This document shows, piece after piece, positions 54,223-62,894 of a DNA stretch of 64,000 nt (positions within the stretch are counted from its first letter, which is position 1; each line of letters opens with the position of its first letter). The position numbers and the translations under genes are program-made. The stretch comes from Thermodesulfobacteriota bacterium (GTDB lineage Bacteria; Desulfobacterota; BSN033; UBA1163). The notes beneath the pieces were generated by a model, which ran no database searches, had not been told where the DNA came from, and saw only the letters and a program-made list of their open reading frames with translations. The DNA lies in assembly GCA_026415035.1 (NCBI GenBank), contig JAOAHX010000015.1:1-64000 (forward strand), written 5' to 3'.

Positions 54223-54570
54223 ATGAGGCCCCCTCCCGTGAAGCTCGGTTATAAATTATGGCTCGATCGCCACGGAAAGGCCTTCGGCGATGGCCCCTAC
54301 GAACTCCTCCGGAGGGTGGAGAAGACCGGTTCCCTCCACCGGGCCGCCCTGGACATGGGGATGTCCTACAACAAGGCCTGGCGGTTGATGGGCATCCTCG
54401 AGAAGCGCCTGGGTTTCCCGCTTCTCGAACGAAAGACCGGGGGAATCGCAGGAGGGGGCTCCCGCCTCACCCCTGAGGGGAAAAAGATGATGGACCGATA
54501 CGGGAGGTTCCGCAAAGAGGCCGACCGAGTCCTCCGGAAAGTCTTCAAAGACCATTTCCAGAAGGTATGA
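54223..54570 (+). CDS. ModE N-terminal-type winged-helix regulator
   Basis: 115 residues, only the LysR-like HTH half of ModE: LLRRVEKTGSLHRAALDMGMSYNKAWRLMGILEKRLGFPLLERKTGG in parts, then GGSRLTPEGKKMM, the classic molybdate-regulator DNA-binding domain. The molybdate-binding MopII/TOBE domains of full ModE (about 260 residues) are missing, so the ligand might be sensed by another protein or the regulator is constitutive. Overlaps the transporter gene as ATGA and has an adjacent ModE-type operator. Confidence 0.9.
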   Translation: MRPPPVKLGYKLWLDRHGKAFGDGPYELLRRVEKTGSLHRAALDMGMSYNKAWRLMGILEKRLGFPLLERKTGGIAGGGSRLTPEGKKMMDRYGRFRKEADRVLRKVFKDHFQKV

Positions 54571-55448
54571 GAATTTTCCCTCTTCTTCGAAGACCGCTTC
54601 GGGCCCCTTTTTTCGCTCTCCTTCTATGGCCCTTCCTCGTCGTCGTGGGAGAGGCCTCCTCTCCTGAAAAACTGCTCCTCTTTGCCGGCGCCGCAAGCAA
54701 ACCCCCGACCGATAGCGCCATCCGGTCGTTCCAAAAGAGAACGGGTACCCGGGTGGAGGTCGTCTATGGAGGGTCCGGTTTTGTCCTCTCCCAGATGAAG
54801 CTCTCGAAAAAGGGCGACCTCTTCTTCCCGGGCTCCTCGGACTTCATGGAGCTGGCCAAAAGGGAGGGCCTTGTCTTTTCTGAATCGGAGAGGGTCGTGG
54901 CCTACCTGATCCCCGCGATCAACGTCCAGAGGGGTAACCCCAAAGCGATCCGGTCACTGAGGGACCTTGCCCGCCCCGGAATTCGTCTCGCCATCGCCAA
55001 CCCCGAGTCGGTCTGCGTGGGCACCTATGCCGTCGAAATCATCGAAAGGAATCTTTCCCCCTCGGAAAAGGAGGCCCTGAGGAAGAATCTGGTCAGCTAT
55101 ACCGAAAGCTGCGAGAAAACGGCCAATATCATCTCCCTCAAAGCGGTGGATGCGGTGCTGGGCTGGGAGGTCTTTCAGCACTGGGACCCGGATCGGATCG
55201 AAACGGTTTTGCTAAGGCCCGAGGAGATCCCCAGGATCGGATATCTCCCCATCGCCATCTCTAAGTTCACCCGGAGCAAGCCTCTGGCCCAAACCTTTAT
55301 TGACTTCCTCCTGGGGCCCGAGGGAAAAACCCTATTCAGGAATCATCACTATCTGATGGATCTCGAAGGGGCACGCCGCTTCACAAAACCCGACACCCCC
55401 GTGGGCGGGGAGTACCGGCTGCCAAAGCAATGGAGGACGAGACCGTAA
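54567..55448 (+). CDS. modA: molybdate/tungstate ABC substrate-binding protein
   Basis: 293 residues. A signal peptide (FFALLLWPFLVVVGEASS), then LLLFAGAASKPPTDSAIRSF (the ModA start with A-A-S), VEVVYGGSGFVLSQMKLSKKGDLFFPGSSDFM (gssG-x-L-x-x-Q and oxyanion loop), RLAIANPESVCVGTYAVEII and AVDAVLGWEVF. ModA fold binding MoO4 or WO4; which one is preferred cannot be read. Translationally coupled to the regulator. A small hairpin (55487-55500) and 112-base gap follow. Confidence 0.92.
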   Translation: MRIFPLLRRPLRAPFFALLLWPFLVVVGEASSPEKLLLFAGAASKPPTDSAIRSFQKRTGTRVEVVYGGSGFVLSQMKLSKKGDLFFPGSSDFMELAKREGLVFSESERVVAYLIPAINVQRGNPKAIRSLRDLARPGIRLAIANPESVCVGTYAVEIIERNLSPSEKEALRKNLVSYTESCEKTANIISLKAVDAVLGWEVFQHWDPDRIETVLLRPEEIPRIGYLPIAISKFTRSKPLAQTFIDFLLGPEGKTLFRNHHYLMDLEGARRFTKPDTPVGGEYRLPKQWRTRP

Positions 55449-55486
55449 CCGATCCCAAGCCCCCATCCCCCAACCCTTTTCAATGG

Positions 55487-55500
55487 CCAGTCCCGACTGG
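55487..55500. repeat. six-base inverted repeat in the modA-modB gap
   Basis: CCAGTC and GACTGG separated by two bases, in the 112-base gap between binding protein and permease. It may tune the different expression of receptor and permease; no T run follows. Confidence 0.35.
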
Positions 55501-55559
55501 TCGTGGGTCAGGATTGGCTGAAAGGGATGCGGTGATTGGCGGTAAATCGAGGAGGACCG

Positions 55560-56336
55560 ATGGCCTTTCGATACACGATGATCGGAGCTGCCCTTGGGAT
55601 TTTCTCCTTCTACCTTGCCCTTCTCGTCTCCCTCGTTTTTTCGGTGACCCCAAAAGGTGTCCTCGACTCCCTCCTCCAACCCTCGACCCTCTTCTCCATC
55701 CGGTTGAGCCTCATCGCTGCAACCGTGGCCACGCTTCTGGCCATCGGGGTCGGCCTTCCCTCGGCCTATGCCCTTTCCCGTTTTCAGTTCAGGGGGAAGC
55801 AGATCGTCGATACCTTCCTTGAAATTCCCATCATCATGTCTCCCATCGCCCTGGGCGCCTCCCTTCTGATCTTTTTGAATACGCCTTTGGGAGAGTTCCT
55901 CCAGTCTAAAGGCATCTCTTTCGTCTTCGAATTCCCGGGAATCCTCCTGGCCCAGTTCGCCACAATCGCGGGGCTGGCGACCCGGTTGATGAAGGCCTCT
56001 CTGGATGAGATCTCCCCGAGGTACGAGGCCGTGGCCCGATCCCTCGGCTCTTCGCCATGGGAGGCCTTCTATCGAATCACGCTGCCCCTCTCCTTCAGGG
56101 GGCTGCTGGCCGCCACCATCCTCTCCTGGGCCAAAGCGGTGGGCGAATTTGGGGCGACGGTGACGGTGGCCGGGGCCATGCCGCTGAAGACCGAAACGAT
56201 GCCCATCGCCATCTATACGGCCCTGGCGACGGCCAATACCGAAAAGACGATCCTCTTGATCCTGATCCTCGTCTCCCTGGGCCTCCTCGCCCTCTTTGCG
56301 GTTCGCCTGACCGGAAAACTGTACCGTTATGATTAA
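55560..56336 (+). CDS. modB: molybdate/tungstate ABC permease
   Basis: 258 residues from the ATG at 55560 (GGAGG four bases before it). Six hydrophobic segments with the ABC EAA-type motif EAVARSLGSSPWEAFYRITLPLSFRG and the substrate-gate WAKAVGEFGATVTVAG, the ModB/WtpB signature (E-F-G-A). The frame upstream to 55536 starts with TTG and is not needed. Overlaps the ATPase gene ATGA. Confidence 0.93.
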   Translation: MAFRYTMIGAALGIFSFYLALLVSLVFSVTPKGVLDSLLQPSTLFSIRLSLIAATVATLLAIGVGLPSAYALSRFQFRGKQIVDTFLEIPIIMSPIALGASLLIFLNTPLGEFLQSKGISFVFEFPGILLAQFATIAGLATRLMKASLDEISPRYEAVARSLGSSPWEAFYRITLPLSFRGLLAATILSWAKAVGEFGATVTVAGAMPLKTETMPIAIYTALATANTEKTILLILILVSLGLLALFAVRLTGKLYRYD

Positions 56337-57423
56337 GATCGAATCCCTTTCGATCGATGTCGGCACCTTTAAACTGAAAGACCTCGACATCACGATCGAG
56401 GAAGGGTCCTTTCACTTTCTCCTCGGCCCAACGGGATCGGGCAAGACCCTCATCCTCGAGTCGATCATCGGCCTCCATCGGCCGGAAAGGGGGAAAATTT
56501 GGGTCGGCCAGAAGGAGGTCCAAAGGCTTCCTCCCGAGCGAAGAGAGATCTCGTATGTCCCTCAGGATCTGGCCCTTTTCCCCCATCTCAGCGTGAGGGA
56601 GAATATCCTGTACGGGATCCGGGCGAGGAATCACATGCCGAAAAATTACGAAGAATACCTGGAATCCCTGATCCGGGCGATGAGGGTTGAAGGCCTTCTC
56701 GATCGGTATCCGGCTCGTCTCAGCGGCGGAGAGAAAAAACGGGTGGCCCTTCTCAGGGCCCTCGCTCCACAGCCGAAGCTCCTCCTCCTCGACGAGCCCC
56801 TTTCGGGCCTCGATCCCTCCATCAAGATCGAGATCCTCTATCTCCTGAAGGCCCTTCATGCCTCGTTTCGGCCGACCGTTTTGTGTGTCTCTCACGATTT
56901 CGAGGAGGCCTATATGCTCGGCGAGAGGATCACCGTCTTCATGGACGGGAAGGTGGAGCAGGTGGGCAGCAGGGACGACGTCTTCCTCAGGCCCCGAACG
57001 AGGAAGGTGGCCGAGTTTTTAGGTCATCGGAACCTTTACAGGGGAAGAATCCTCTCCAGAGATGAGGCTCAGGGGAGGACCTTGCTCGATATTCAAGGGC
57101 TGAGGTTTTCCGCTCCTTCTGCGGCCGACCCGAAACGGAAGGAGAGGGGAAAAGAGGTGGACCTCTATATCCGGCCGGAGGAGGTGATGATCCTCCGGGA
57201 GGGAAAGCCTGTCAAAGATTCTTTAAAGAGGAATATCTTCGAGGGGGCGATCCTCGACATCGCCGATCGAGGAAGGCACCATGTCATCTTCTTCCAGGAA
57301 AAGAGCCATTGTGTCCTTTTCGAAATCTCCATCCCGAATTACGCCCTTCGAAATCTCAATCTCTCTTCGGGCCAGGAAGCCAAAATAGCTCTCCGGGACG
57401 AGGCCTTCTGGGTGATGGAATAG
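56329..57423 (+). CDS. modC: molybdate/tungstate ABC ATPase with C-terminal TOBE region
   Basis: 364 residues. Walker A FLLGPTGSGKTLILESIIGL, Q-loop YVPQDLALFPHLSVREN, signature ARLSGGEKKRVALLRAL, Walker B LLLLDEPLSGLDPSIKIEI and SHDFEEAYML (switch His). The C-terminal about 100 residues hold beta-rich regulatory TOBE-like sequence. It stops 11 bases from the convergent mobB. Confidence 0.94.
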   Translation: MIKIESLSIDVGTFKLKDLDITIEEGSFHFLLGPTGSGKTLILESIIGLHRPERGKIWVGQKEVQRLPPERREISYVPQDLALFPHLSVRENILYGIRARNHMPKNYEEYLESLIRAMRVEGLLDRYPARLSGGEKKRVALLRALAPQPKLLLLDEPLSGLDPSIKIEILYLLKALHASFRPTVLCVSHDFEEAYMLGERITVFMDGKVEQVGSRDDVFLRPRTRKVAEFLGHRNLYRGRILSRDEAQGRTLLDIQGLRFSAPSAADPKRKERGKEVDLYIRPEEVMILREGKPVKDSLKRNIFEGAILDIADRGRHHVIFFQEKSHCVLFEISIPNYALRNLNLSSGQEAKIALRDEAFWVME

Positions 57424-57433
57424 AGGCAGAGGG

Positions 57434-58087
57434 TCAAACGGGATCGAGGATCTGGATGTCTATCTTTTTAAAGGTTTCGCACCCCTTAAGGGACCTCACC
57501 ATTCCCTTGATCGATCCCGTCAGGAAATCGCGGATGAAAGGTTTCAAGGGGATCGTCTTCCCATCCACCTTCAAGGTGATCTCCACCTCCCTTTTCGGTT
57601 TGAGAAACTTCCTCTCGATGAAGTCTGCCACCTCTCCGGGAGCATCCAGGGAGAAACAGGGCACGTCCACCTCGAAGGTCTGATTCGATACGATGGCAAC
57701 CAGGTTGTCTTCTTTGGTACAGAGCAGTTCCTGATGCACCTCCTTCCGGAAGATCTCGATCTTGGGCTGGACGTCCTTCTTATACCCCTCAGAGAGGATG
57801 AGATCGACGTCCTGGATGAACTTTTCCCGTATCTCGTCCAGGGTCAAATCCCTCTCCACATCCCGGATGAGCGCAACCTTTTGGGGAGAGGAGATCACCA
57901 CCGTATGGGCTCCCGCCTTCTTATGCCGCCAGCTATCCTTCCCCTCCCGGTCCACCTCAAACCCGTGGACATCGTGTTTCACGGTGGCCACCCGGTAGCC
58001 CCTCTTCACCAGTTCGGGCAAGAGCTTCTCGATGAAGGTCGTCTTCCCGCTATCGGACTTTCCTACGATCGATATGATGGGAATCAT
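57434..58087 (-). CDS. mobB: molybdopterin-guanine dinucleotide biosynthesis protein MobB, extended
   Basis: 217 residues. GTP-binding start IPIISIVGKSDSGKTTFIEKLLPEL (P-loop), VATVKHDVHGFEVDREGKDSWRHKKAGA with the MobB H-D-x-H region, and LILSEGYKKDVQPKIEIFRKE. After residue 160 the protein carries an extra about 50 residues not seen in E. coli MobB. It assists MobA in forming the bis-MGD cofactor for Mo/W enzymes. Leftward, adjacent to moeA. Confidence 0.92.
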   Translation of the reverse strand: MIPIISIVGKSDSGKTTFIEKLLPELVKRGYRVATVKHDVHGFEVDREGKDSWRHKKAGAHTVVISSPQKVALIRDVERDLTLDEIREKFIQDVDLILSEGYKKDVQPKIEIFRKEVHQELLCTKEDNLVAIVSNQTFEVDVPCFSLDAPGEVADFIERKFLKPKREVEITLKVDGKTIPLKPFIRDFLTGSIKGMVRSLKGCETFKKIDIQILDPV

Positions 58088-58166
58088 GGTCGGTTGGCTC
58101 CCGTATTGAGTTCCGAGGGCATCCTTGGAAGGTTGAAGGCTTGAACACCAGGGGATGAAAAAGGTT

Positions 58167-59408
58167 TCATTTCAGCGGACCCGATCCTACGAACTCCGGA
58201 GGGTAAAGCAGTTGCACCTTCACCCTCTCCCCTTCCTTGACCCCCTCCCGATCTTCCGGAAGGATGATCAACCCGTTGGCCCGTACCATCGATCGCAATA
58301 TTCCGGAGCCCTGAGGACCCGTGGTTTTCACAGAGTATCCCTCCGGCCCGTAAGAGACCACCCCTCGGATGAAATGTCTCTTCCCGGGTTCTTTCCGGAT
58401 CTCTTCGGCAAGGATGGCTTCGATCACAGGCCGAAAGAGCTGGCCGTGGCCCATCATCTTGAGCAGGGCGGGTCGGACAAACTGCTCAAAGGTCACCATG
58501 GAGGAAACCGGATTTCCGGGAAGGCTGAAAACGGGCTTTCCATCATATTGCCAGAAGGCCACGGGTTTTCCGGGCTTCATGGCTACCCGCCAGAAGATCA
58601 GCTGCGCCCCCAACTCCTTCAATGCCTCTCGGACAAAATCATAATCGCCCACGGAGACGCCCGCAGAGGAGATAAAAACGTCCGCCTGAAGCCCCTGGAG
58701 CAGTTTCCTCTTTATCTCCTCCTTATCATCTCTTGCGATTCCCAACTGCATCGGGACGGCCCCGCACTCTTTCACCTGAGCAGCCAGGGTATAGGAATTG
58801 CTGGAGACGATCTTGGCCCCTTCCAGAGGCTCCCCGACATCGACCAGCTCCTCTCCCGTACAGAGGATGGCGACCACCGGCCTCCGGTAGACCAGGACAA
58901 AGGGTTTCCCGATGGAGGCCAACATCCCGACTTCCGAGGGCCGGATGACCTCCCCGTGGGTGATCACGCGATCCCCCTGCTTAACATCCTCTCCGGCCCT
59001 CCGGATGAAATCTCCAGGGCGAACGCTCTTCCGGATGGAGACCGACCTTCCGTCCGATCTCGTCTCCTCCACAGGAACCACCGCATCTGCCCCTGCGGGG
59101 ACAGGAGCTCCCGTCATAATCCGAATGGCCTGTCCCTCCTGAAGGGCGTTTTTGGCAAAAAACCCTGCCCGAAGATCCTCGATGATTATTAAAGAGACCG
59201 GGTTCTGTTCCGAGGCCTTCTGAACATCCACGGATCGAACCGCATAGCCATCCATCCCGGAATTGTCATAAGGGGGGAGGTCGCGGGGGGCGACGGCATC
59301 CTCAGCGATCACACGGCCCAGGGCCTCCAGGATCGAGACCTTTTCGAGCCCAAGGGGATGAACATGAGAAAGGATCCTTTCGATGGCTTCCTCAACCCGG
59401 ATCATCAT
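58167..59408 (-). CDS. moeA: molybdopterin molybdenumtransferase MoeA
   Basis: 413 residues. MMIRVEEAIERILSHVHPLG, DLPPYDNSGMDGYAVRS (the P-P-F/Y-x-N-S-A/G-M-D-G signature), IMTGAPVPAGADAVVPVEE, ICTGEELVDVGEPLEG, VSSNSYTLAAQVKECG, STGG-like SAGVSVGDYDFVREAL and FSLPGNPVSSMVTFEQFVRP. Inserts Mo or W into molybdopterin. A TATATT hexamer ends ten bases before the ATG and no SD is seen. Between mobB and the ferritin-like gene. Confidence 0.95.
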   Translation of the reverse strand: MMIRVEEAIERILSHVHPLGLEKVSILEALGRVIAEDAVAPRDLPPYDNSGMDGYAVRSVDVQKASEQNPVSLIIIEDLRAGFFAKNALQEGQAIRIMTGAPVPAGADAVVPVEETRSDGRSVSIRKSVRPGDFIRRAGEDVKQGDRVITHGEVIRPSEVGMLASIGKPFVLVYRRPVVAILCTGEELVDVGEPLEGAKIVSSNSYTLAAQVKECGAVPMQLGIARDDKEEIKRKLLQGLQADVFISSAGVSVGDYDFVREALKELGAQLIFWRVAMKPGKPVAFWQYDGKPVFSLPGNPVSSMVTFEQFVRPALLKMMGHGQLFRPVIEAILAEEIRKEPGKRHFIRGVVSYGPEGYSVKTTGPQGSGILRSMVRANGLIILPEDREGVKEGERVKVQLLYPPEFVGSGPLK

Positions 59409-59553: not shown

Positions 59554-59639
59554 CGATCTGTCCGGAAAAGAGAGGAGGAGGGCCTTTGACCCTCGTCCTT
59601 AAAAGTCACAGCAAAAAAACAAAAAAGGAGGGACCCGAT

Positions 59640-59936
59640 ATGCTTTCGAAAATACCTGTGGATCTTGAAAAAATATCCCGAGGCGATCTGGACAAAGAGA
59701 TCCTCAGGGCAGGCATTATCGCGGAACTGGACGCCATCAACCTTTATGAACAGATGGCCGCCCTGACAAAAAATCAGAGGATTAAGAAGGTCCTGCTTGA
59801 CATCGCCCGGGAAGAGAAGACCCATGTGGGAGAATTCCAGGCCCTTTTGCTCCAGGAGGACAGGGAGCAGGAAGAAGAGTTAGAGAAGGGTCGGATGGAA
59901 GTAAAAGGGAGGGTGGACCCTAAGAGAGGGGGATAA
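59640..59936 (+). CDS. two-helix ferritin-like protein (encapsulated-ferritin type)
   Basis: 98 residues from the ATG at 59640 (AAGGAGG before it). Two helices carrying a ferritin half-site: AGIIAELDAINLYEQMAAL (Glu29, Glu37) and DIAREEKTHVGEFQALLLQE (Glu59, His62, Glu65, ExxH). Two-helix length and motif match encapsulated ferritins (EncFtn), which form decamers and need two subunits to build a diiron site. The tail KGRMEVKGRVDPKRGG is basic and has no obvious encapsulin-targeting peptide, and no encapsulin gene is adjacent. Possibly an iron-oxidising or rubrerythrin-like protein. Confidence 0.83.
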   Translation: MLSKIPVDLEKISRGDLDKEILRAGIIAELDAINLYEQMAALTKNQRIKKVLLDIAREEKTHVGEFQALLLQEDREQEEELEKGRMEVKGRVDPKRGG

Positions 59937-60603: not shown

Positions 60604-62064
60604 ATGGCTCTGATCACACCCGAACAGTATGAGGGGAGCCTAAAGAAGAGAAAACCCAGGATCTTCATGAACGGGAAGAAGGTCGAAGACTACCTCAGTA
60701 ATCCCAATATTCGTACGGTCATCGAGGCGAACAAGGCCAGTTACCGGTGGGCCTTGGACCCCGACACCCAGGAGATCATGACGGCCCTCTCCCCCCTGAC
60801 GAAGGACCGGGTCAACCGATACGTCCATGTCTGCGGAAGCCGGGAGGACCTGGTCGCAAAGGCCATCGCAGGGACTTTCGCCGCTGAACGGCTGGGAACC
60901 TGCATCTACCGGTGTCCCGGTCTGGACGCCTTCCACAGCCTGGCCAGCACGACTTGGGAGATGGACAGGAACCTCGGAACGGAGTATCACAGCCGGTTTA
61001 TGAGATACCTGAAGTGGGTTCAGGAGAACGACCTGGTGGTCTCGGGGGCCTTGACAGAACCCCGTGGAGATCGCAAAAAGAGGGCCCTCGACTGGCCAGA
61101 TCCTTATCTCTCCCTGAAGGTGGTGGAAAAGAGATCGGACGGGATCGTCGTCCGGGGAGCCAAGATCAATATCAGCGGCGCCTTCGTCAGCCACGAACTG
61201 GTCGTCCTTCCCCAATCCGCAAAGAAGAGAGAGGAAGGCGATTATGCCTTGGCCTTTGCGATCCCTTCCGATGCCGAAGGCATCACCTATATCTGCCAGT
61301 ACTCCCCTTATTCAGCCGAACGCGAAATGGCCGAGGATATCTACGAGCTGGGAAACCCTCTCTTCGGCCAGAGGGAGACGGCCATGGTCGTCTTCGACAA
61401 TGTCTTTGTCCCTTGGGAAAGGGTCTTTCACTGCGGGGAAACCGAATATTCCTCAAAATTGGTCGAACGCTTCGCCAAGACCCACCGGATGACCTGCGGG
61501 GGGACCTGCAAGGTCGGGTTCATGAACCTCATCATCGGGGCCTGCAAGCTCCTCCAGGAGTATAAGGGATTGGAGAAGGCCCAGCACATCAACGACGAGC
61601 TGACCGAGATGGTCGTCTTGAGGGAGACCGGAAGGGCCTGCGGTCTGGCCTCGGCCAATCTCGGAAAAGAAGAACCGGAAGGATCGGGCGTCTTCCTCCC
61701 CGATGAGTTGATGGGGAACGTGGCCAAGCTCAACATCTGCAATGCCTTCTGGCGGGTGATGGCCCTCGCAGGTGACATCGGAGGCGGCCTCATCGTCACC
61801 CTCCCCTCCCTCAAGGAGTTGAAGAACCCGGAGACGAAAAGGTATGTCGAGGAATTCCTGGGGTTCGGTTCGGAGGTGCCCACCGAACACATCCTCAAGG
61901 TGACGAAACTCCTTCAGAACTGGACCGCCGGCCAGCACGGGGTGGGCACCTGGCATGGCGCGGGTCCGGTCATGGCCCAGAAGATCATGATCCAGAGGAT
62001 CGTCGATTACGAGCACGAAAAGAAGCTGGTCAAAGAGGCTTTGGGGATCTTGGAGAAGAGATGA
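60604..62064 (+). CDS. 4-hydroxybutyryl-CoA dehydratase/HpaB-fold [4Fe-4S] enzyme
   Basis: 486 residues. Flavin and cluster fold of 4-hydroxybutyryl-CoA dehydratase (AbfD). Cys100 and Cys104 (CIYRC) match C99/C103; H294 and C302 (HRMTCGGTCKVG) match H292/C299 but with one extra residue. AbfD's Tyr296 aligns with Cys298 here. Lys303 corresponds to K300. The full cluster set suggests a radical dehydratase or isomerase, not an HpaB monooxygenase; the changed active-site residue suggests another substrate. SD AAAGGAG. Coupled to the MBL gene by ATGA. Confidence 0.88.
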   Translation: MALITPEQYEGSLKKRKPRIFMNGKKVEDYLSNPNIRTVIEANKASYRWALDPDTQEIMTALSPLTKDRVNRYVHVCGSREDLVAKAIAGTFAAERLGTCIYRCPGLDAFHSLASTTWEMDRNLGTEYHSRFMRYLKWVQENDLVVSGALTEPRGDRKKRALDWPDPYLSLKVVEKRSDGIVVRGAKINISGAFVSHELVVLPQSAKKREEGDYALAFAIPSDAEGITYICQYSPYSAEREMAEDIYELGNPLFGQRETAMVVFDNVFVPWERVFHCGETEYSSKLVERFAKTHRMTCGGTCKVGFMNLIIGACKLLQEYKGLEKAQHINDELTEMVVLRETGRACGLASANLGKEEPEGSGVFLPDELMGNVAKLNICNAFWRVMALAGDIGGGLIVTLPSLKELKNPETKRYVEEFLGFGSEVPTEHILKVTKLLQNWTAGQHGVGTWHGAGPVMAQKIMIQRIVDYEHEKKLVKEALGILEKR

Positions 62065-62894
62065 GGATCACCATCTTGTGTGAAAATTCGGTCGGGAAAC
62101 TTATCGGCGCCGGCGAGCATGGCTTCTCCGCCTTTATCGAAACCGCCCATGGAAACTACCTCTTCGATACCGGAAGCGGCCCTTCCGTGGTTACAAACTC
62201 CCTCGTCCTGAACAAGGATTTAAAGGGCGTCAAGAAGATCTTCTTGAGCCATGGCCATTACGATCACACAGGGGGTCTGCCCGAGGTTCTGAAGCTGAAG
62301 GGCAAGGTCGATGTCCACGCCCATCCCCATCTCTTCTCAGACAGGATTGCCATCCACAAAGAAGACGGAGGGGAGGTGAGGCGATTCATCGGAATCCCTT
62401 ACAAAAGGACCTACCTGGAATTTCTCGGGGCCAACTTTATTCTCAACACCGAATTTACCGAGGTGGAAAAGGGGATTTTTTTGACCGGCGAGGTTCCTCG
62501 GATCACCCCTTTTGAGAAACTGGACCCAAGGCTCTTGGTCGAAACCGAGGGAAGATTTTCCCAAGATCCCCTCCTCGACGATCAATCCCTTATCCTCGAT
62601 ACGGAAAAGGGACTCGTTCTCATTCTCGGATGTGCCCACTCCGGAATGATAAACATCCTCCACCATGCGATCCATAAAACGGGGAAGGATAAGTTCCACG
62701 CCCTCCTCGGCGGGACCCATCTCGATTTTATGTCTCCGGAGCAACTCGAAGAGTCGATCAAGGCCCTCAAAGAGATTAGGGTCGAACGGATCGGTGTCTC
62801 CCACTGCACCGGCATGAGAGCCGCCTTCAGACTTCATCAGGAATTCGGAGATCGCTTCTTCCACGGATGCGTGGGAAGCGTCTTGGAGGTCTAA
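62061..62894 (+). CDS. MBL-fold metallohydrolase (COG1237 type)
   Basis: 277 residues. The MBL motif reads IFLSHGHYDHTGGLPEVL, then HAHPHLFSDRIA, ILGCAHSGMINILHHAIHK and the C-terminal ISHCTG-like GVSHCTGMRAAFRL. COG1237 members include a dihydropterin-related protein of methanopterin pathways. Overlaps the dehydratase by ATGA, so the two are one expression unit. Metal-bound hydrolase; substrate unknown. Confidence 0.9.
   Translation: MRITILCENSVGKLIGAGEHGFSAFIETAHGNYLFDTGSGPSVVTNSLVLNKDLKGVKKIFLSHGHYDHTGGLPEVLKLKGKVDVHAHPHLFSDRIAIHKEDGGEVRRFIGIPYKRTYLEFLGANFILNTEFTEVEKGIFLTGEVPRITPFEKLDPRLLVETEGRFSQDPLLDDQSLILDTEKGLVLILGCAHSGMINILHHAIHKTGKDKFHALLGGTHLDFMSPEQLEESIKALKEIRVERIGVSHCTGMRAAFRLHQEFGDRFFHGCVGSVLEV

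Follow-up and report, generated by a model that had tools for sequence, protein, structure and literature searches.

An AbfD-type enzyme of a Thermodesulfobacteriota bacterium with cysteine at the position of the catalytic tyrosine, and the clade that shares this exchange

Closest described enzymes and identity of the focal protein

4-Hydroxybutyryl-CoA dehydratase (4HBD, AbfD) needs neither SAM nor B12 nor ATP to form its flavin radical. A role of Tyr296 and Glu455 in this process was proposed from mutants, the AbfD variants Y296F and E455Q being reportedly nearly or fully inactive. In this proposal Tyr296, deprotonated by Glu455, would reduce FAD to the semiquinone, and Glu257 and Thr190 would provide the proton path. 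For the gamma-butyrobetainyl-CoA TMA-lyase BbuA, a flavin acyl-CoA enzyme that belongs to the acyl-CoA dehydrogenase family and is only about 10% identical to 4HBD, a published description proposes a cryptic radical C4 elimination resembling the 4HBD reaction (PMC8364193). The likeness of BbuA to the enzyme presented here is drawn from that description.

The window analysed is the whole 64,000-nucleotide stretch of contig JAOAHX010000015.1. Its focal gene codes for an AbfD-type protein, probably binding FAD and a [4Fe-4S] cluster (Table 1), with matches to the Pfam domains HpaB_N (280.1 bits) and HpaB (189.7 bits), both above the gathering score. Phmmer scores 361 bits (E 7e-107) against the 4HBD of C. 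aminobutyricum (1u8v), 338 bits against the oxygen-tolerant 4HBD of N. maritimus (6vjr) and 134 bits against the HpaB protein 2yyg. Identity to AbfD is about 40% over a similar overall length. The AlphaFold2 model, computed from 65 aligned sequences (pLDDT 91, pTM 0.91), is likewise closest to the two 4HBDs: Foldseek places 1u8v first (TM 0.93, 1.9 A) and 6vjr second, followed by HpaB entries at TM 0.82-0.88, and VIA-align 2 yields Z values of 52.6 for 6vjr, 51.5 for 1u8v and 39.3 for the best HpaB entry. The model thus gives confidence that the protein has the predicted fold of a 4HBD subunit.

The Pfam domain names and the general fold are shared with the HpaB family (4-hydroxyphenylacetate 3-monooxygenase), and a flavin monooxygenase of that type, devoid of cluster, would account for them. 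We consider this extremely improbable. The protein falls far under the cut-offs of the NCBIfam HpaB equivalogs (162.8 vs 480.2 and 86.2 vs 885.2 bits), its nearest structures are 4HBDs, and it keeps the cluster ligands, whereas the more distant 2yyg, in sequence and in structure, has M, a gap, N and L in the ligand columns.

Alignment to 1u8v brings C99, C103, H292, C299 and K300 of AbfD onto C100, C104, H294, C302 and K303. The four ligands and K303 are invariant in a 65-row alignment of clade and non-Cys family members. By this correspondence the [4Fe-4S] ligand set of AbfD is kept in the focal protein, which presumably binds the cluster. Tyr296 is replaced by Cys298, and the distance from the histidine to the last cysteine is 8 instead of 7, owing to one extra residue before C302. 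The alignment bears out what a preliminary description, made from the sequence of the window, had recognised at these positions: the four ligands, the cysteine in place of Tyr296 and the longer spacing. It adds three features to that description. Gln101 is replaced by Tyr102, Glu455 is lost, with Gly448 of a shortened loop in its column, and Thr259 stands in the Glu257 column, adjoined by Glu258 across an alignment gap. The exchange of Thr190 for Ser191 is conservative. The protein is not to be filed as a 4HBD on these sequence features, because the catalytic tyrosine and glutamate of AbfD are both absent. The N. maritimus enzyme has the same fold and ligands and differs from the focal protein in keeping Tyr296, Gln101, E257 and E455; its histidine-to-cysteine spacing is one shorter than in AbfD and two shorter than in the focal protein. 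The same shortening occurs in the relatives L019 and L022, which, like 6vjr, keep the full catalytic set. The longer spacing, which the preliminary description had listed together with Cys298 in suggesting another substrate, is therefore abandoned as a sign of one by itself.

Table 1. Positions in the window of the focal gene, of its cluster and active-site residues and of the adjoining gene.
Feature	Position	Strand	Basis or remark
Focal gene, AbfD-type enzyme (putative FAD and [4Fe-4S] cofactors); T type, HRMTCGGTCK, of the Cys298/Tyr102 clade	60604..62064	+	ORF, ATG start, 486 aa
C100-I-Y102-R-C104, two cluster cysteines and clade-specific Tyr102 (AbfD Gln101)	60901..60915	+	Alignment
Ser191 (AbfD Thr190)	61174..61176	+	Alignment
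Glu258-Thr259; Thr259 in the AbfD Glu257 column, Glu258 one earlier, local alignment uncertain	61375..61380	+	Alignment
H294-RMT-C298-GGT-C302-K303, His and Cys cluster ligands	61483..61512	+	Alignment, pattern match at 61483
GVGTWHGA shortened loop; AbfD Glu455 missing, Gly448 in that column	61939..61962	+	Alignment
MBL-fold hydrolase gene	62061..62894	+	4-base overlap with the focal stop (62061-62064)

Structure prediction of the 294-303 loop, which had been proposed as a check, places it inside a helix spanning residues 280-320 (41 residues), where H294, C298 and C302 occupy positions i, i+4 and i+8. The matching helix of a control model, that of a full-set relative from L094 with the Tyr loop, spans residues 277-316 (40 residues); this control was computed from 25 sequences, reached pLDDT 84 and has two segments of low confidence in other parts. 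We infer that the extra residue may be absorbed as a helix bulge, both ligands staying in register. This predicted arrangement also lends itself to a reading in which Cys298 is itself a cluster ligand, either in an all-cysteine site (C100, C104, C298, C302) that frees H294 to act as an unligated base or in replacement of C302, the insertion providing slack. All 97 Cys-type sequences presented below have five potential ligands, and the regular spacing of three of them along one predicted helix fits the idea. We nevertheless find it doubtful: H294 and C302 align with known ligands and are invariant, and the insertion lies inside a helix (41 vs 40 residues) where a bulge can keep the register.

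Coupled substitutions in the Cys clade

Homology searching gave 98 matches, from which 70 distinct relatives were drawn. The loop HRMxCGGxCK is present in 13 of them, which are 50-100% identical to the focal protein, and absent from the other 57 (30-46% identity). With motif-found sequences added, the loop occurs in 97 of 161 distinct homologues. The 97 include three pairs, two of the V type and one of the N type, whose partners are more than 99% identical. The motif CxYRC, carrying Tyr102 at the position of Gln101, is found in all 97 Cys-type sequences and in none of the 64 other relatives; the motif-found part of the 97, which came from the contig search and the DNA pattern described below, was recruited by these same motifs and is not independent. 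Since many of the 97 were gathered in this way, the 70 relatives found by homology only are the fair subset, and there the motif divides the sequences as cleanly (13/13 vs 0/57). The short loop of GVGTWHGA type is found in 96 of the 97, L074 having GVVTWHGAG instead, and the canonical Glu455 pattern in none.

A dereplicated set of 71 sequences with less than 82% mutual identity, three of them PDB chains, includes 22 with HRMxCGGxCK and 20, among them 1u8v and 6vjr, with the full canonical set C99, C103, T190, E257, H292, Y296, C299, K300 and E455. The exchanges that separate the canonical sequences (20/20) from the Cys clade (22/22) without exception include Q101 to Y102, Y296 to C298, R232 to Y233 and R238 to E239. 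The exchange of E257 for T259 shows the same counts in the weakest column, which lies in a gapped stretch, and E258 next to T259 could still play the part of E257 in the clade. E441 to Q438 follows closely (19/20 vs 22/22). Cys298 of the focal protein is thus not a lone mutation. By alignment, the residues proposed to generate the radical in AbfD appear remodelled together in the Cys clade. The preliminary description had suggested that the enzyme acts on another substrate, and this remodelling (Cys298, loss of E455, Thr259 in the E257 column) makes the suggestion likely.

A FastTree phylogeny of this dereplicated set, with HpaB as root, gathers all 22 Cys-type tips in one clade (support 1.0) that is separate from both AbfD and HpaB. 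The focal protein groups with the cluster-bearing AbfD types and not with the HpaB monooxygenases, the grouping by which the preliminary description would have been refuted. The clade comprises the T type (HRMTCGGTCK, 16 tips, including the focal protein), the V type (HRMVCGGSCK, one kept tip) and the N type (HRMNCGGACK, five tips, support 0.79). Its placement among the remaining AbfD clades is poorly supported, with values of 0.58 and 0.17 at the adjacent nodes.

An ordinary 4HBD isoenzyme, in which the loop substitutions are tolerated and the reaction is unchanged, would retain the cluster ligands, the counterpart of K300 and the overall fold, as observed here, and the histidine-to-cysteine spacing does vary in 6vjr, which was deposited as a 4HBD. 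In the loci L078 and L094, moreover, genes for an Fe-alcohol dehydrogenase and for an AbfD homologue lie no further than about 2-8 kb from the Cys-type gene; the homologue at L078 shows the full residue set, and its L094 counterpart shares 94% identity with it. The preliminary description had seen no GABA or succinate pathway around the gene, which holds for its surroundings in the window but may not extend to these two loci. We regard the isoenzyme as an unlikely explanation. The Y296, E455 and E257 columns are changed in the 22 kept clade members and the full set is kept in 20 others, the inactivity of the AbfD mutants speaks against tolerance of such changes, and the genome of the window has a separate copy with the full set (L002). 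That genome codes for one more family member, L003, of the HRHSYSGCKP kind.

Departures from AbfD are not confined to the Cys clade. Loops of the HRHSY[S/T/C]GCKP type without E455, copies without cluster ligands and a clade, with 6vjr among its members, whose spacing is one residue shorter also occur in the family. A further AbfD-type clade has histidine at the position of Tyr296 (HRQSHGGCK; L032, L153, L158, L162, L169, L170, L183, L184). It keeps the cluster ligands, and its five kept members have cysteine in the Glu257 column; from its sequences it is a further candidate for changed chemistry. Beside the N-type gene of L195 lies a second, tandem family member (L195:9904-11361), to which L194:6039-7574 corresponds by position and similarity. 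With its motif YRACIGACVAG it keeps three cysteines and has tyrosine for the histidine ligand and isoleucine at the Tyr296 place; it is possibly a partner subunit of the N type. A relative of it is found in another genome (L180). The genome G040 gives 11 matches to AbfD-type sequences of several subfamilies at E <= 1e-60. In one MAG a T-type gene is split into two ORFs of 159 and 309 aa (L102:3437-4909).

Distribution in genomes and neighbouring genes

A degenerate DNA pattern for HRMxCGGxCKVG is found in 37 of 395 sampled genomes of the phylum of the window, the reversed control giving 0 throughout. A search of genome contigs yielded 205 relatives, of which the best 80, at 71-92% identity, were retained; these loci are labelled Deltaproteobacteria, Desulfobacterales, Syntrophobacteraceae, Desulfomonile, Dehalococcoidia and a few others. 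In the phylum of L098, a Dehalococcoidia-labelled carrier (Chloroflexota-type), the pattern is found in one of 251 genomes, which is the centre genome itself. Presence in Chloroflexota-type genomes is sporadic and may reflect either transfer or mis-binning of MAGs. In the isolate Desulfoferrobacter suflitae DRH4, the sole family member at E <= 1e-40 is a T-type orthologue 77% identical to the focal protein.

Gene neighbourhoods were counted in 77 of the best 80 loci, L037, L048 and L062 being dropped because the focal gene was not called as an ORF. The preliminary description had given the focal gene an MBL hydrolase as partner. The two genes do overlap by 4 bases in the window, and an MBL gene directly downstream (same strand, within 175 bp, at least 37% identity) recurs in seven of the 77 loci (L038, L039, L040, L045, L064, L069, L088). 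Three of these, L064, L069 and L088, carry Dehalococcoidia/Chloroflexi labels, L064 and L088 belonging to one MAG. MBL relatives lie at greater distance in L041 and L079. Relatives at E <= 1e-30 are found in 41 of 59 related genomes, among them G012, G013, G015 and G016, where the best matches to the focal gene are only 33-38% identical. The pairing is loose because MBL relatives occur with or without a close focal homologue. A dedicated partnership is rejected on these counts, and the MBL gene is probably a mere neighbour.

Upstream of the focal gene, window positions 59586-59936 code for a ferritin-like protein resembling an encapsulin cargo (EncB family model, below cut-off). Positions 54223-59408 hold genes for a ModE-like regulator, a substrate-binding protein and an ABC transporter, assigned by eye, followed by MobB and MoeA (Pfam), which together look like a cluster for molybdate/tungstate uptake and for the cofactor.

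Among the 77 loci no universally conserved neighbour of the Cys-type gene was found. Many have unrelated housekeeping neighbours (ComF-, ProS- and ProC-like by eye), the focal gene looking stand-alone, and in 14 of the 77 it is immediately preceded by a gene for a TetR-like regulator, an assignment that Pfam bears out for the copy in L065. Several associations nevertheless recur. A gene for a URO-D-family protein resembling the MtaA/CmuA methyltransferases, below the cut-offs of those models, lies downstream of the focal gene in 9 of the 77 loci. The two V-type loci retrieved together with their surroundings (L200, L201) have the order PaaK-like ligase, focal gene, URO-D, and the N-type L186 has focal gene, PaaK, URO-D. 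At E <= 1e-80, 16 of the 395 genomes have a URO-D relative. The Cys type is present in 13 of these 16, compared with 37 among all 395 (Fisher p 2e-12; with families as the unit, 5/7 vs 12/107, p 1.4e-4). In four of the 13 (G007, G042, G215, G237) the URO-D gene is physically close to the focal gene; seven come from one family (f21), whose URO-D copies show 42-44% identity to the query and lie on contigs other than that of the focal gene. URO-D is present without the Cys type in G097, G191 and G296, and the genome of the window gives no URO-D match at E <= 1e-60.

Acyl-CoA genes form a second group of neighbours. In L199 and L059 the T-type gene closes an operon-like run that begins with the two subunits of a B12 acyl-CoA mutase, first the large and then the B12-binding one, and continues with a PaaK-type ligase; the gaps between ligase and focal gene are 28 and 9 bp, respectively (small subunit and ligase of L199 confirmed by Pfam). 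Another acyl-CoA mutase gene is near the N types of L191, 365 bp away on the same strand, and of L192, 2.6 kb away on the opposite one, its best PDB match being HCM 4r3u. Ile90 and Asp117 of HCM, which we take to be the substrate-informative positions of such mutases, correspond to Ile and Val in the L199 mutase and to Phe and Ala in that of L191. Both mutases score under the NCBIfam cut-offs for named mutases, and no claim on their substrates is made from these residues. The N-type genes of L193-L195 are followed by a gene resembling aldehyde:ferredoxin oxidoreductase (AFOR Pfam for L195, the others by eye). In L038 and L040 the genes after the focal gene code for two BcrAD/BadFG-type ATPases and a ferredoxin-like protein (Pfam for L040, similarity for L038). 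The neighbouring ligases and mutases suggest that acids are converted to CoA esters and that some lineages add a skeletal rearrangement. Redox proteins of the C_GCAxxG_C_C family are coded close to T- and N-type genes (L186:10107-10481 and L192:11019-11561 by PF09719; L040:9453-9971 through its likeness to a protein of L094 in which this domain is present).

A non-catalytic or regulatory paralogue that kept the cluster as a redox sensor would suit the lack of a fixed operon and a gene that is often alone. It is a very unlikely alternative, as the best 80 of the 205 loci are 71-92% identical with cluster and loop motifs kept, which argues for catalysis, and acyl-CoA genes lie alongside in several lineages.

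Proposed chemistry and meaning for the family

We privilege the hypothesis, with a probability of roughly 0.55, that the focal protein is an FAD/[4Fe-4S] radical acyl-CoA lyase or isomerase whose substrate is other than 4-hydroxybutyryl-CoA. The oxygen-sensitive FAD enzyme would hold one [4Fe-4S] cluster per subunit through C100, C104, H294 and C302. It would carry out substrate-triggered radical chemistry on an acyl-CoA thioester, an elimination or a double-bond isomerisation with no net redox change. H294, beside the cluster, could be the base that removes the unactivated beta-proton, and the FAD semiquinone would be the radical initiator. Cys298, a single turn along the helix from H294, and Tyr102, placed between the cluster cysteines, may take over the donor and proton-relay roles, and the acyl-CoA tail would sit in a pocket differently shaped or charged. 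Given the radical proposal for AbfD, the joint exchange at Tyr296, Glu455 and Gln101 is most readily taken to mean both a changed donor or relay and a changed acyl tail. As to the substrate, the neighbourhoods of some lineages suggest a carboxylic acid, with a PaaK-type ligase for its activation or a B12 acyl-CoA mutase for its rearrangement.

A bolder reading, which is considerably less probable, is that the redox-active tyrosine has moved in the clade (Tyr296 to Cys298, Gln101 to Tyr102, Glu455 lost). Flavin/[4Fe-4S] radical generation would then be naturally re-engineered, with Tyr102 or Cys298 (via a thiyl) as electron donor to FAD, and used on a branched or non-canonical acyl-CoA in an anaerobic pathway linked to a B12 mutase or a corrinoid methyltransferase.

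No description of a Cys-for-Tyr subfamily was found in titles and abstract starts, the subscription literature being thinly covered and novelty unproven. For the proposal that Tyr296 and Glu455 generate the radical in 4HBD, a natural clade that lacks both and has a tyrosine between the two cluster cysteines in 97 of 97 members offers a ready test. The Cys clade probably marks a new acyl-CoA reaction in anaerobes.
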